Below are positions 23,493 to 45,873 of a DNA stretch of 64,000 nucleotides, piece after piece. The stretch comes from Sinomonas gamaensis (GTDB taxonomy: Bacteria; Actinomycetota; Actinomycetes; Actinomycetales; Micrococcaceae). The first letter of the stretch is position 1. Every line of letters begins with the position of its first letter. A model generated the notes under the pieces. It worked only from the letters and a program-made list of their open reading frames with translations. It was not told where the DNA came from and made no database searches. A program made the position numbers and the translations under genes. The stretch covers positions 186,001-250,000 of the forward strand of contig NZ_SSCL01000005.1 in the NCBI RefSeq assembly GCF_005876955.1. The letters run 5' to 3'.

Positions 23493-23530
23493 CTGAATGG
23501 ACGCGTGGACGCCAAGGCATATGCAAAACG

Positions 23531-23604
23531 TGCCCCAGCAGGGACTCGAACCCTGACTTGGCGGATTTTAAGTCCGCTGCCTCTGCCGATTGGGCTACTG
23601 GGGC
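23531..23604 (-). tRNA. tRNA with UAA anticodon and class I fold (Leu-UAA by codon)
   Basis: On the minus strand a complete cloverleaf is readable: acceptor GCCCCAG/CTGGGGC, D-arm with GCC/GGC, anticodon stem GCGGA/TCCGC with loop CTTAAAA (anticodon TAA, codon UUA), a 5-nt variable region (CAAGT), T-arm CAGGG-TTCGAGT-CCCTG, discriminator A73. No CCA is encoded. Bacterial tRNA-Leu normally has a long variable arm; this one does not, so the amino acid identity is uncertain even though UUA is a leucine codon. Confidence 0.88.
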
Positions 23605-23714: not shown

Positions 23715-25133
23715 CTACTGGGCCGGAGCCTTGGCGGGCTCGACCGGAGGCGCGATGGTTTTCGGCTTCGGGCTCGCGGCCGCGACGAAGGACGCGCGAG
23801 GGTTGTCGAGGTTCTCGAGCGGCGTGTTGTCACGGCCCGCGAACAGCGCCGACAGCCAGTCGAGGCCGACGCGGAACTTGCGCTCGGCGGTCGGGATCGC
23901 GAGACCGTGGTAGCCGCGGTGCGCCAGCCACGCGAGGGGGCCGGTCAGGCCGATGTGACCCACGAGGTTGATGTTCGCGACGCCCTTCCAGGGGCCGAAA
24001 CCTGCGACGGCGCCGAGGTTCTTGTGCTTGTAGTCCTCGAGCGGGCGGTCCCAGCGGGCGGCCCAGAGGTTCTTCGCGAGGAGCTTGGCCTGACGCAGGG
24101 CGTGCTGGGCGTTGGGCACGCAGGTGCCGTCCGGGAGGCCCTTGCCCGTGAGATCGGGAACGGCGGCGATGTCGCCGGCAGCCCAGGCGTTCTCGATGAT
24201 GCCCTCGTCGCCAGCGATGCGCAGGTCCGGCAGGACGCGGACGCGGCCGCGCGGTTCGAGCGGGAAGCTCGTGGAACGCACCATCGGGTTGGCCTGAACG
24301 CCGGCGGTCCAGATGAGGGTGTCCGCCTTGAACTCCTGCGCCGGGGACTTGTCCGGCATATTGATGAGCTTGAGCGTGTCCTCGGCGCTGGCGAGGGAGG
24401 TGTTGAGGAGGACCTCGATGCCGCGGCTCCGGAGGTGCTGGACGACCCAGTCGGCCTGCTCGGGCGTGACCTCGGGCATGATGCGGCCCATCGCCTCAAC
24501 GAGGACGAAGCGGACTTCCTCCTGCTTGACACGGTCGTTCGCCGCCACGGTCGAGCGGGCGAGGTCCTCGAGCTCGGTGAGGGTCTCGATGCCGGCGAAG
24601 CCGCCACCCACGACGACGAACGTGAGAGCGGCCTTGCGCTCCTCCGGGTCCGAAGCAGTCGAAGCGAACTCGATGCGCTCGAGGACCTGGTTGCGGAGGG
24701 CGATGGCCTCCTCGATGGTCTTGTTGCCGATGCCCTTCTCGGCCAGGCCGGGGATCGGGAACGTGCGGGTGATCGCGCCAGCGGCGAGCACGATGTCCAC
24801 GTAGGGGATCTCCACTGTGCCCTCGTTGCCGGGCAGCTCCACGACGGCAGTCCGCTTGTCGTGGTCGACGGAGACGACCGAGCCCTGGATGACCTCGGCG
24901 TCCGGGAGCGTGCGGCGAAGCGGGACCACCACGTGGCGGGCCTCGATGTTGCCGCCAGCAACCTCGGGGAGGAACGGCTGGTAGGTCATGTACGGCATGG
25001 GATCGACGACGGTGACAATGCCGCCGGCCTTGGCGATCTTCTTCTGCAGCCCGAGGGCGACGTAAAGACCGACGTAACCACCGCCGGCGACAAGGACGCG
25101 CGGGCGGTCGACGAGATCAATGGTGGAAGGCAT
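23715..25133 (-). CDS. ndh: Type II NADH:quinone oxidoreductase (NDH-2)
   Basis: A 472-residue FAD flavoenzyme that passes electrons from NADH to menaquinone without proton pumping. The FAD motif is VLVAGGGYVGLYVA near residue 13; the NADH-binding motif is FVVVGGGFAGIETLTEL near 170. YMTYQPFLPEVAGG and WAAGDIAAVPD are conserved in NDH-2, and the amphipathic C-terminal part (FRVGLDWLSALFAGRDN) would attach it to the membrane. The start ATG has TACAGT exactly 7 nt upstream and a Rex operator next to that, so redox control is likely. It lies downstream of the S8 protease gene but has its own promoter. Confidence 0.95.
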   Translation of the reverse strand: MPSTIDLVDRPRVLVAGGGYVGLYVALGLQKKIAKAGGIVTVVDPMPYMTYQPFLPEVAGGNIEARHVVVPLRRTLPDAEVIQGSVVSVDHDKRTAVVELPGNEGTVEIPYVDIVLAAGAITRTFPIPGLAEKGIGNKTIEEAIALRNQVLERIEFASTASDPEERKAALTFVVVGGGFAGIETLTELEDLARSTVAANDRVKQEEVRFVLVEAMGRIMPEVTPEQADWVVQHLRSRGIEVLLNTSLASAEDTLKLINMPDKSPAQEFKADTLIWTAGVQANPMVRSTSFPLEPRGRVRVLPDLRIAGDEGIIENAWAAGDIAAVPDLTGKGLPDGTCVPNAQHALRQAKLLAKNLWAARWDRPLEDYKHKNLGAVAGFGPWKGVANINLVGHIGLTGPLAWLAHRGYHGLAIPTAERKFRVGLDWLSALFAGRDNTPLENLDNPRASFVAAASPKPKTIAPPVEPAKAPAQ

Positions 25134-25138
25134 GGATC

Positions 25139-26485
25139 TTACTGTAGCAGTTTGTGAAAACTTTCACTAGCACTCGGGCGCCTGCGTCTCCTGAGGGTCA
25201 GAAGGTGCCACGTGCCGCCCGCGAGGATCGCCAGGACAAGCCCTCCGAAGCCGAGCACGACGATAGGGGGCCAAGGTGATGAGTCGGCAGCTGCAACCGG
25301 GCTCGGAGCTGGCCCTTCCGCGACGGGCGTCTCGGTCGCAGGGGGTGCAGCAGGAGCGGCGGGGGCTGAAGAGGCAGGCGAGTCGCGGCGGTGGACGCGG
25401 ATCCAATCGGCGATGGATCCGAGCGGATTGGCTGTGACCTGCGGGACGTCCGCCTTCAGGGCCGCCTCCGCGTTGAGGATCCCGTAGCCATAGATGGGGT
25501 CGTGCCCTGGTGCGCCCGCGTCCTTGGCCGTCGAGATGATGCGGTTGATCACCTGCTCGGCGCTCATGTCCGGCCACTTCGCGCGGATGAGCGCGGCTAC
25601 CCCGGCGACGATCGGAGTGGCGCCCGAGCTGCCAGCCCACTGGGCGTAGGTTCCGTCCGGGAGGCCGCCCACGAGCTGCTCCGCGGGGGCGGACACGCCG
25701 ATGCTCACGCCCTGCGAGGACGCATCCACGCTCGCGTGCTCGTCGCGGTCCAGGCCCGCCACGGTGAGGACACCCGGGATCGTCGCGGGAGCACCGACTT
25801 GGACGCTTCCCGCCCCGCGATTGCCGGCTGCCGCGACCACCACGACGTCCTTCTGCTCGGCATAGAGGAACGCGTCGTCCCAGCTCCGGGGCCAATCGGG
25901 AGAGGAGCTGCCCAAAGACATGTTGATCACCTTGGCGCCGTGATCCACTGCCCAGTGGACCGCTGCCGGAATCTGCTGGAGGTCCGTGGGCCCGGCGGGG
26001 TTCGGAGACCCGAGCCACGTCGAGACAGTGAGCAGATTCGCCTGCGGCGCGACGCCGACGATGCCGTCAGGACCTGTCGAGCCCCCGCTCAGCGGCGAAC
26101 CGTCAGGGCGATGCCCACGGCCTCCGAGTACCGTGGCCACGAGCGTTCCGTGCTCCGGTTCCGCTCCGATCGGCTTCTGGCCGTCGGGCTGGCCCGCGCC
26201 GGAGACGTCGGTGCCGCCCGATACGGCCCCCTTGAGGTCCGCCACTCCCCCATTGACGCCGCTGTCGATGACGGCCACCGTGACGCCAGCCCCCTGCGAC
26301 ACGCTCCATGCCTTGTCGATCCCGTATTCAGAGATCCAGTACTCGGCGTCGCGGATGGTGTCCGCGTGCGCAGACGAGGCCGGAGCAAGAAGAGCCAAGC
26401 AGGCGAGCGCCGCGCTTGTCAGGCACGCGAGGACGACGGCGGTCAGCCGCGCCGCCGTCGTGGGCGGGCTGTTGTGGACTCCCAT
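25139..26485 (-). CDS. S8 (subtilisin/mycosin-like) secreted serine protease with C-terminal anchor
   Basis: A 448-residue protease. A signal peptide occupies about 1-41 (cut near SAHA-DT). The catalytic triad is D74 (VAVIDSGVN), H112 (EHGTLVAT) and S287 (GSSGAT), with N222 in AAGNRG for the oxyanion hole. A Pro/Ala linker (~375-405) leads to one C-terminal TM helix and a basic tail. This is the layout of type VII secretion mycosins, but no ESX genes are in view. It starts 3 bp after ppx and is likely cotranscribed with it. Its last codons contain the ndh promoter and a Rex operator. Confidence 0.92.
   Translation of the reverse strand: MGVHNSPPTTAARLTAVVLACLTSAALACLALLAPASSAHADTIRDAEYWISEYGIDKAWSVSQGAGVTVAVIDSGVNGGVADLKGAVSGGTDVSGAGQPDGQKPIGAEPEHGTLVATVLGGRGHRPDGSPLSGGSTGPDGIVGVAPQANLLTVSTWLGSPNPAGPTDLQQIPAAVHWAVDHGAKVINMSLGSSSPDWPRSWDDAFLYAEQKDVVVVAAAGNRGAGSVQVGAPATIPGVLTVAGLDRDEHASVDASSQGVSIGVSAPAEQLVGGLPDGTYAQWAGSSGATPIVAGVAALIRAKWPDMSAEQVINRIISTAKDAGAPGHDPIYGYGILNAEAALKADVPQVTANPLGSIADWIRVHRRDSPASSAPAAPAAPPATETPVAEGPAPSPVAAADSSPWPPIVVLGFGGLVLAILAGGTWHLLTLRRRRRPSASESFHKLLQ
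25141..25146 (-). promoter_or_regulatory. -10 element TACAGT of ndh (leaderless)
   Basis: On the minus strand TACAGT is followed by 7 nt and the ndh ATG. It overlaps the CTA-CAG codons and the stop of the upstream protease gene. Confidence 0.6.
25152..25169. promoter_or_regulatory. Rex operator upstream of ndh
   Basis: TTGTGAA (25152-25158), spacer AACT, TTCACTA (25163-25169) matches 13 of the 14 fixed bases of the Rex consensus TTGTGAA-N4-TTCACAA. It covers about -19 to -36 relative to the predicted ndh start at 25133, ideal for repression relieved by NADH-bound Rex. It is embedded in the codons for Glu-Ser-Phe-His-Lys of the protease. Confidence 0.75.
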
Positions 26486-44085: not shown

Positions 44086-45873
44086 ATGCAGGTCCACAAG
44101 TATGACGTGGTGATCGTCGGCGCCGGTGGCGCCGGCATGCGCGCGGCCATCGAGTCCGGCCAGCGCGCCCGCACCGCTGTACTGACCAAGCTGTACCCCA
44201 CCCGCTCCCACACCGGCGCGGCCCAGGGCGGCATGTGTGCCGCCCTCGCCAACGTCGAGGAGGACAACTGGGAATGGCACACCTTCGACACGGTCAAGGG
44301 CGGCGACTATCTCGTCGACCAGGACGCCGCCGAGGTCATGGCGAAGGAGGCGATCGACGCCGTCCTCGACCTCGAGAAGATGGGCCTGCCCTTCAACCGC
44401 ACGCCGGAGGGCCGCATCGACCAGCGTCGCTTCGGCGGCCACACGCGTGACCACGGCAAGGCTCCGGTCCGTCGCGCATGCTACGCCGCGGACCGCACGG
44501 GCCACATGATCCTGCAGACGCTCTACCAGAACTGCGTCAAGCACAACGTCGAGTTCTACAACGAGTACTACGTGCTGGACCTCCTCATGGTCGAGGAGGA
44601 CGCAGTGCGCGAGGACGGCACGCCGTTCAAGCAGAAGCGCGCCGCAGGCGTGGTGAGCTACGACCTCGCGTCCGGCGAGATCCACGTCTTCCAGGCCAAG
44701 GCCATCGTCTTCGCCACGGGCGGCGCCGGCAAGGTCTTCAAGACCACCTCCAACGCCCACACCCTGACCGGTGATGGCATGGGCATCGCGTTCCGCCGCG
44801 GCATCCCGCTCGAGGACATGGAGTTCATCCAGTTCCACCCGACGGGCCTCGCCGGACTCGGCATCCTCCTTTCCGAGGCGGCCCGAGGCGAGGGTGCCAT
44901 CCTCCGGAACTCGGAGGGCGAGCGCTTCATGGAGCGCTACGCGCCGACCATCAAGGACCTCGCTCCTCGCGATATCGTGGCCCGTTCCATGGCCAACGAG
45001 GTGCGCGAGGGCCGCGGAGCCGGCCCGAACAAGGACTACGTGCTCCTTGACCTGACCCACCTCGAGCCCGCGCACATCGATGCGAAGCTGCCGGACATCA
45101 CCGAGTTCGCGCGGACGTACCTGGGCGTGGAGCCCTACACCGAGCCCGTTCCCGTGTACCCCACGGCGCACTACGTGATGGGCGGCGTCCCGACCAACAT
45201 CAAGGGTGAGGTCCTCCAGGACAACGAGACCGTGGTGCCGGGCCTCTACGCGGCCGGCGAGGTTGCCTGCGTGTCCGTTCACGGCTCGAACCGCCTGGGC
45301 ACGAATTCGCTTCTCGACATCAACGTGTTCGGAAAGCGCTCGGGCATCGCGGCCGCCGAGTACGCCAAGACGGCCGAGTTCGTGGAACTCCCCGAGAACC
45401 CGGCTGCGGAGACGGAGGCGCTCCTGAGCGCCGTCCGCAACTCTGCGGGCAACGAGCGGATCGCCTCGATCCGGGCCGACCTGCAGGAGACCATGGACGC
45501 GAACATGCAGGTGTTCCGGACCAAGGACTCCATCGCCAAGGCCCTTGCAGACATCGCAGCCCTGCGCGAGCGCTACCGGAACATCGGAATCCAGGACAAG
45601 GGCAAGCGCTTCAACCTCGACCTCCTCGAGGCCGTCGAGCTCGGCTTCCTCCTGGATCTTGCCGAGGTCATGACGGTTGCTGCCCTCCACCGCAAGGAGT
45701 CGCGAGGCGGCCACTACCGCGAGGACTTCCCCGACCGCGACGACGCCAACTTCATGAAGCACTCGATGCTCTACAGGGACCCCGCGGCGGAGACCGAGGG
45801 CGTCAAGGGCATCCGCTTCGGTACGAAGCCGGTTGTCTTCACCCGTTACGAGCCGATGGAGCGTAAGTACTGA
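44086..45873 (+). CDS. sdhA: Succinate dehydrogenase flavoprotein subunit
   Basis: A 595-residue FAD subunit oxidising succinate to fumarate. [16 protein letters not shown] binds [17 protein letters not shown] carries the His for covalent FAD linkage. HPTGLAGLG and [21 protein letters not shown] belong to the active site, and the C terminus ends in [28 protein letters not shown] precedes the ATG. The stop shares one base with the sdhB start. Confidence 0.98.

Follow-up and report, generated by a model that had tools for sequence, protein, structure and literature searches.

A regulatory loop between the redox sensor Rex and Ndh is reportedly spoken of in the title of a 2006 paper by Gyan and others. 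In Bacillus subtilis, Rex represses yjlC-ndh, according to PMC5355995. For Streptomyces avermitilis, the same source describes Rex as controlling ndh2 and the WhiB-family gene wblE, with the consensus TTGTGAANNNNTTCACAA, and also cyd, nuo, atp and rex-hem (PMC5355995). Rex of S. avermitilis binds an ndh2 probe in electrophoretic mobility shift assays and protects a region at wblE, and the operators of rex, atpI and nuoA1 encompass the -35 element (PMC5355995). The ndh2 site of S. avermitilis is a weak one with 3 mismatches, the enzyme is labelled complex I, and the site is tabulated with the figure 119, which we read as its distance (PMC5355995). Rex control of ndh is reported from B. subtilis and, as ndh2, from S. 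avermitilis, and the case from Sinomonas gamaensis analyzed here is a new and well-conserved example. Among the papers listed by literature searches, no title or displayed abstract describes a site for Rex before ndh in this genus or in relatives of it; RegPrecise and subscription papers lay outside the scope of these searches, and an earlier prediction for the family may exist. A reading made earlier from the letters alone (the sequence-only reading) had called ndh a logical target of Rex; the choice is sensible and of a type known from both B. subtilis and S. avermitilis.

Sinomonas resembles S. avermitilis in the consensus and in the presence of Rex-type sites at ndh (ndh2 in S. avermitilis) and at a WhiB-family gene. 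Unlike S. avermitilis and Streptomyces, the Sinomonas genome has no site at up to 3 mismatches in the neighborhoods of cydA and rex, a marker of complex I was not found, and the operator extends into the end of the protease gene located upstream. On account of the empty neighborhoods of cydA and rex, we rejected strong-site control of cydA and of rex by its own product. With B. subtilis, as far as the same source describes it, the Rex-ndh link is shared but the promoter layout is different, ndh being located behind yjlC.

The DNA analyzed is a stretch of 64,000 nts (the window) of the S. gamaensis genome. An 18-bp palindrome is present at positions 25152-25169, reading TTGTGAAAACTTTCACTA on the forward strand and TAGTGAAAGTTTTCACAA on the ndh strand. 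It differs from the Rex consensus TTGTGAANNNNTTCACAA by a single mismatch, with 13 of 14 fixed positions identical. The palindrome stands in front of ndh (23715-25133, reverse strand, ATG at 25133) and spans -36 to -19 relative to the A of the ATG (+1), where it covers the -35 and spacer of a predicted leaderless-type ndh promoter. It falls entirely within the last codons of the reading frame of an S8 protease located upstream of ndh (25139-26485, reverse strand). The match to 13 of 14 positions, the placement at -19 to -36 and the inclusion of the whole site in the final protease codons had all been claimed by the sequence-only reading, and a recount returned the same figures. At a threshold of 3 mismatches or fewer, the window holds no further match to TTGTGAANNNNTTCACAA, 0.22 matches are expected by chance, and at least one match occurred in 19 of 100 shuffles. 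In the whole genome (4.32 Mb in 35 contigs), 34 matches were obtained at this threshold versus 10 for a reversed control pattern, and only two matches, the palindrome at 25152-25169 and a site at position 44845 of contig C23, had at most 1 mismatch. The motif alone is moderately improbable, and its significance comes from its position in front of ndh and from its conservation. From these features, we consider it very probable (about 0.92) that the palindrome is the operator through which the NADH/NAD+ sensor Rex controls ndh.

The ndh gene encodes a protein of 472 aa with a Pyr_redox_2 domain, whose best solved relatives are type II NADH dehydrogenases (NDH-2; best E 5.8e-33); the protein is a flavoprotein related to the solved NDH-2 enzymes. 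Its best hits among named contigs come from Sinomonas. A tRNA-Leu (TAA) gene is located downstream on the same strand (23530-23604). To follow ndh and rex across the family (Micrococcaceae), we used a sample of 149 genomes from 32 genera, drawn evenly from a larger group. A relative of Ndh at E <= 1e-100 was detected in 148 of these, the exception (G029) being an assembly that is 82% complete. The 49-kDa family of complex I (PF00346) was found in none of the 149 genomes, while the same marker was positive in 11 of 14 control genomes; this suggests that NDH-2 may be the chief NADH:quinone enzyme of the family.

The rex gene is present in the same genome as the palindrome, on a separate contig (C30; locus L002, positions 1225-1947). 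Its product carries Put_DNA-bind_N above the cut-off together with CoA_binding, scores 336.7 bits against the NCBIfam Rex equivalog NF003992 (cut-off 226), and shares the segment RKDLSxxGSYGTRGVGY with a solved Rex (3ikv, 3ikt). We take this segment to be part of the Rex DNA-binding region. A genome devoid of rex had been named beforehand as an observation that would speak against the proposal, and this is not the situation here. In the family sample, rex was above cut-off in 109 of 149 genomes and was accompanied by ndh in 108. The 40 genomes of the rex-less set comprise 35 without any match, 15 of which were assigned by elimination, and 5 with sub-threshold matches only.

The regions upstream of ndh were then compared, using 147 genomes plus the window for S. 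gamaensis itself, one region (G070) being shortened by a contig end. Within 200 nts upstream of ndh, 79 of the 108 genomes with rex had a best site with 1 mismatch, 25 had one with 2 and 4 had one with 3, so that a site was present in 108/108 at a threshold of 3 mismatches and in 104/108 at a threshold of 2. Among the 40 rex-less genomes with ndh, no site was found at up to 2 mismatches and a single one (G025) at 3. In upstream regions simulated with a first-order Markov model, sites with at most 2 and at most 3 mismatches appeared in 4 and 130 of 29,600 sequences, respectively. All of the 80 named loci, which overlap the family sample and whose rex status was outside the scope of the comparison, carry a site with 1 mismatch. 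The site is conserved together with rex and lost without it: loss despite the presence of ndh, which the sequence-only reading had named as counter-evidence, is seen in 39 of 40 rex-less genomes but never in the 108 having both genes. This confinement of site loss to genomes lacking rex speaks for Rex as the regulator.

Fisher tests of this association are extreme but treat relatives as independent. A tree of 37 chosen genomes was built by a quick search from Ndh, enolase and a Ppx-like protein, encoded by three neighboring genes. On this tree, the presence of rex requires at least 6 changes, 5 of which are forced by supported branches. Of the 5 independent pairs available on supported branches, 4 agree with the association, none opposes it and 1 is tied (p 0.125), with the same result at either mismatch cut-off; it follows that the Fisher values overstate the independence of the data. 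The tied pair is presumably G053/G025 at the 3-mismatch cut-off (1 versus 3 mismatches) and G064/G011 at the 2-mismatch cut-off (3 versus 5 mismatches). G053 and G025 belong to the same genus (g25); the site in G053, which has rex, carries 1 mismatch, and the copy in the rex-less G025 carries 3 at the same position. The G025 copy looks like an operator in decay when compared with that of its genus mate. Four genomes of genus g10 that have rex also carry sites with 3 mismatches, a number equal to that of G025.

Comparative data do not distinguish Rex from a partner with the same history of gains and losses, and such another regulator could in principle read the site. We hold this to be highly improbable: the motif is the consensus determined by experiment for Rex of S. 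avermitilis (PMC5355995), and the Sinomonas Rex shares with a solved Rex the segment taken above as part of the DNA-binding region.

Operators of actinobacterial CRP/GlxR regulators consist of half-sites TGTGA and TCACA with 6 bases between them. The Rex consensus includes this arrangement (TGTGA-N6-TCACA), the 18-mer in front of ndh holds GTGA-N6-TCAC, and HTH_Crp_2 proteins are encoded in 149/149 family genomes, so that the palindrome could be read as a site for a regulator of this type at the ndh promoter. Yet the site is lost with rex while CRP-type proteins, traced at the family level, persist in the 40 rex-less genomes; the ubiquity of HTH_Crp_2 means that loss of the whole CRP family does not explain loss of the site. 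Within the site, conservation extends to bases lying between the CRP half-sites, with T at position 12 in 108/108 genomes and A at position 7 and T at position 11 in 100/108; in the TGTGA half-site, the leading T is retained in just 19/108. The Sinomonas-family site differs from CRP/GlxR operators in following rex and in the identity of its conserved bases, and its presence does not follow that of CRP-type regulators, as far as tracing at the family level goes. Since genomes that have lost the site still encode CRP-type proteins, we rejected CRP/GlxR as the main reading and regard a role of this kind as very unlikely.

If Rex acts at the ndh promoter, its operator is expected to keep a set distance to the promoter elements. 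A predicted -10 hexamer of the TAnnnT type, TACAGT, is present on the reverse strand at 25141-25146 and ends 7 nts before the ndh ATG. A TAnnnT element 6-7 nts before the ATG is found in 108/108 genomes with rex and in 33/40 without. With a spacer of 17 nts, the place of the -35 is occupied by TAGTGA (25164-25169, reverse strand), located inside the operator and matching TTGACA at 3 of 6 positions. A simple scan for promoters and terminators gave no result, with no consensus sigma-70 promoter in 25100-25300. The distance from the operator start to the -10 start is 23-25 nts in 62 and 33-35 nts in 46 of the 108 genomes with rex, with sites beginning at -35 to -38 (the -37 class) or at -45 to -48 (the -47 class), respectively. 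The two places are about one helical turn apart, and the class is constant within each genus. Within the -47 class, 31 of 46 genomes have the ndh-proximal half-site itself (TTCACA, 5 of 6 matches to TTGACA) at the -35, which fits occlusion of the promoter. The operator is thus located, at a fixed spacing to TAnnnT, where it is able to block transcription from the predicted promoter.

Alternatively, instead of occluding the ndh promoter, Rex could act mainly as a roadblock to transcription arriving from the protease gene or from a promoter further upstream. The two genes are codirectional and lie 5 nts apart, and the scan did not see a consensus promoter at ndh. Against this, the -10 element precedes the ATG by 6-7 nts in all 108 genomes and the operator occupies two set distances, as promoter occlusion expects, and the site is retained in 5 of 108 genomes in which the protease was not detected. 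We judge the roadblock unlikely and retain occlusion of the ndh promoter by Rex as the preferred reading.

In the rex-less genus g11 (G011, G041, G065 and G088), a consensus -35 hexamer, TTGACA, is present at -33 to -28 of ndh, at about the place where the half-site TTCACA stands in the sister genus g10. One base change could convert a relic half of the operator (TTCACA) into a -35 element (TTGACA).

The protease gene encodes a mycosin-like S8 (subtilase) protein of 448 aa (Peptidase_S8, E 5.7e-45). The score against the NCBIfam mycosin model TIGR03921 was 229.2 bits, under the cut-off of 278.75, and only membership in the S8 subtilases is claimed. In S. gamaensis, the tail of the protease (...SASESFHKLLQ) is encoded through the operator and the -10; its stop codon TAA occupies 25141-25139, the last T of TACAGT serving as its first base, and five bases separate it from the ndh ATG. 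Calling the end of the protease as the first in-frame stop, we compared the 108 genomes with rex. In 72 of them the protease frame is closed before it reaches the site, and in 5 no protease was detected. In 30 of the 108 (30 of the 103 with a detected protease), the operator itself supplies the stop codon, as TAG at site positions 1-3 in 19 genomes or as TGA at positions 4-6 in 11. Reading through the whole operator occurs in a single genome of the 103, that of S. gamaensis. Among the 80 named loci, the protease ends upstream in 54, uses the TAG in 22, reads through in 3 (Sinomonas susongensis, Sinomonas humi and Sinomonas albida) and was not detected in 1.

The tail SE(S/T)FHKLLQ read from the site is common to S. 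gamaensis and these three species, and conservation of the palindrome could be attributed to the coding of the protease end rather than to a regulator. The distribution of protease ends led us to reject this as the cause: the site is kept where the protease stops before it (72/108) or inside it (30/108). Moreover, the only difference inside the site among the four read-through species is an S to T change, which is non-synonymous and affects a free base at the center of the operator. We give this explanation next to no credence. The protease overlap is incidental to an operator located at a gene junction, where, according to lineage, the protease frame closes before the site, closes at the TAG or TGA inside it or, in the branch of Sinomonas studied here, continues across it in the third frame. 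What the operator shapes is a variable tail at the end of the protease, and only in one small branch does it do so over its whole length. The sequence-only reading had combined a Rex operator controlling ndh with protease codons constrained by the regulator. Its first part is supported by the site, the rex gene, their co-conservation and the promoter overlap; its second part does not hold in general, as most proteases end before or inside the site, and the claim is a weak one.

The second strong Rex-like site of the genome, TCGTGAAAATCTTCACAA, is located on contig C23 (positions 44845-44862; locus L008, 1501-1518), 35-52 nts before a WhiB-family gene (L008, 1553-1801). The product of this gene belongs to the WhiB domain family (PF02467, E 2.8e-28) and had no NCBIfam match; we infer that it is the wblE orthologue. 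In the genus Sinomonas, exactly two sites with at most 1 mismatch were found in 15/15 genomes, the reversed control giving 0 or 1. A pattern combining the site with the start of the WhiB gene was present in 59 of 149 family genomes, all of them with rex, including 7/7 members of Sinomonas in the sample. The start motif alone occurred in 103/109 genomes with rex and in 34/40 without, and in none of these 34 rex-less genomes was the site found with it. The exact pattern was missing from 50 of 109 genomes with rex, including all members of 11 genera. The WhiB-gene site was seen in 12 genera with rex of the -37 class of ndh sites plus genus g29. It was not found in any of the 46 genomes with rex (11 genera) of the -47 class, where it may be absent, altered or otherwise spaced.

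Combined, these observations suggest how the locus would work. At low NADH, Rex would bind the operator at -36 to -19 and keep RNA polymerase off the -35 and spacer. When NADH accumulates, NADH-bound Rex would be released and ndh would be transcribed as a leaderless message. NDH-2 would then oxidize NADH, the NADH level would fall and the feedback loop would be closed. Unexpectedly, the perfect consensus was found in none of the 108 rex-linked ndh sites. The ndh-distal half carries at least 1 mismatch in 104/108, most commonly A or C for T at position 2 (89/108), and the ndh-proximal half is perfect in 89/108 genomes with rex. The absence of a perfect site and the accumulation of mismatches mostly in the ndh-distal half may reflect a tuned affinity. 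It is conceivable, though we are inclined to doubt it, that the ndh operator is deliberately kept below full strength to set the NADH/NAD+ threshold, while also serving as a translation stop and occupying one of two alternative places about a helical turn apart.

The locus offers an example of an operator that extends across a gene boundary and, in part of the species, provides a stop codon. The several losses of rex, each accompanied by loss or decay of the site before ndh, provide a natural experiment on orphaned operators. Finally, since the complex I marker was not found in the family sample, this well-supported redox switch for NDH-2 may govern the chief route by which electrons enter respiration in these bacteria.
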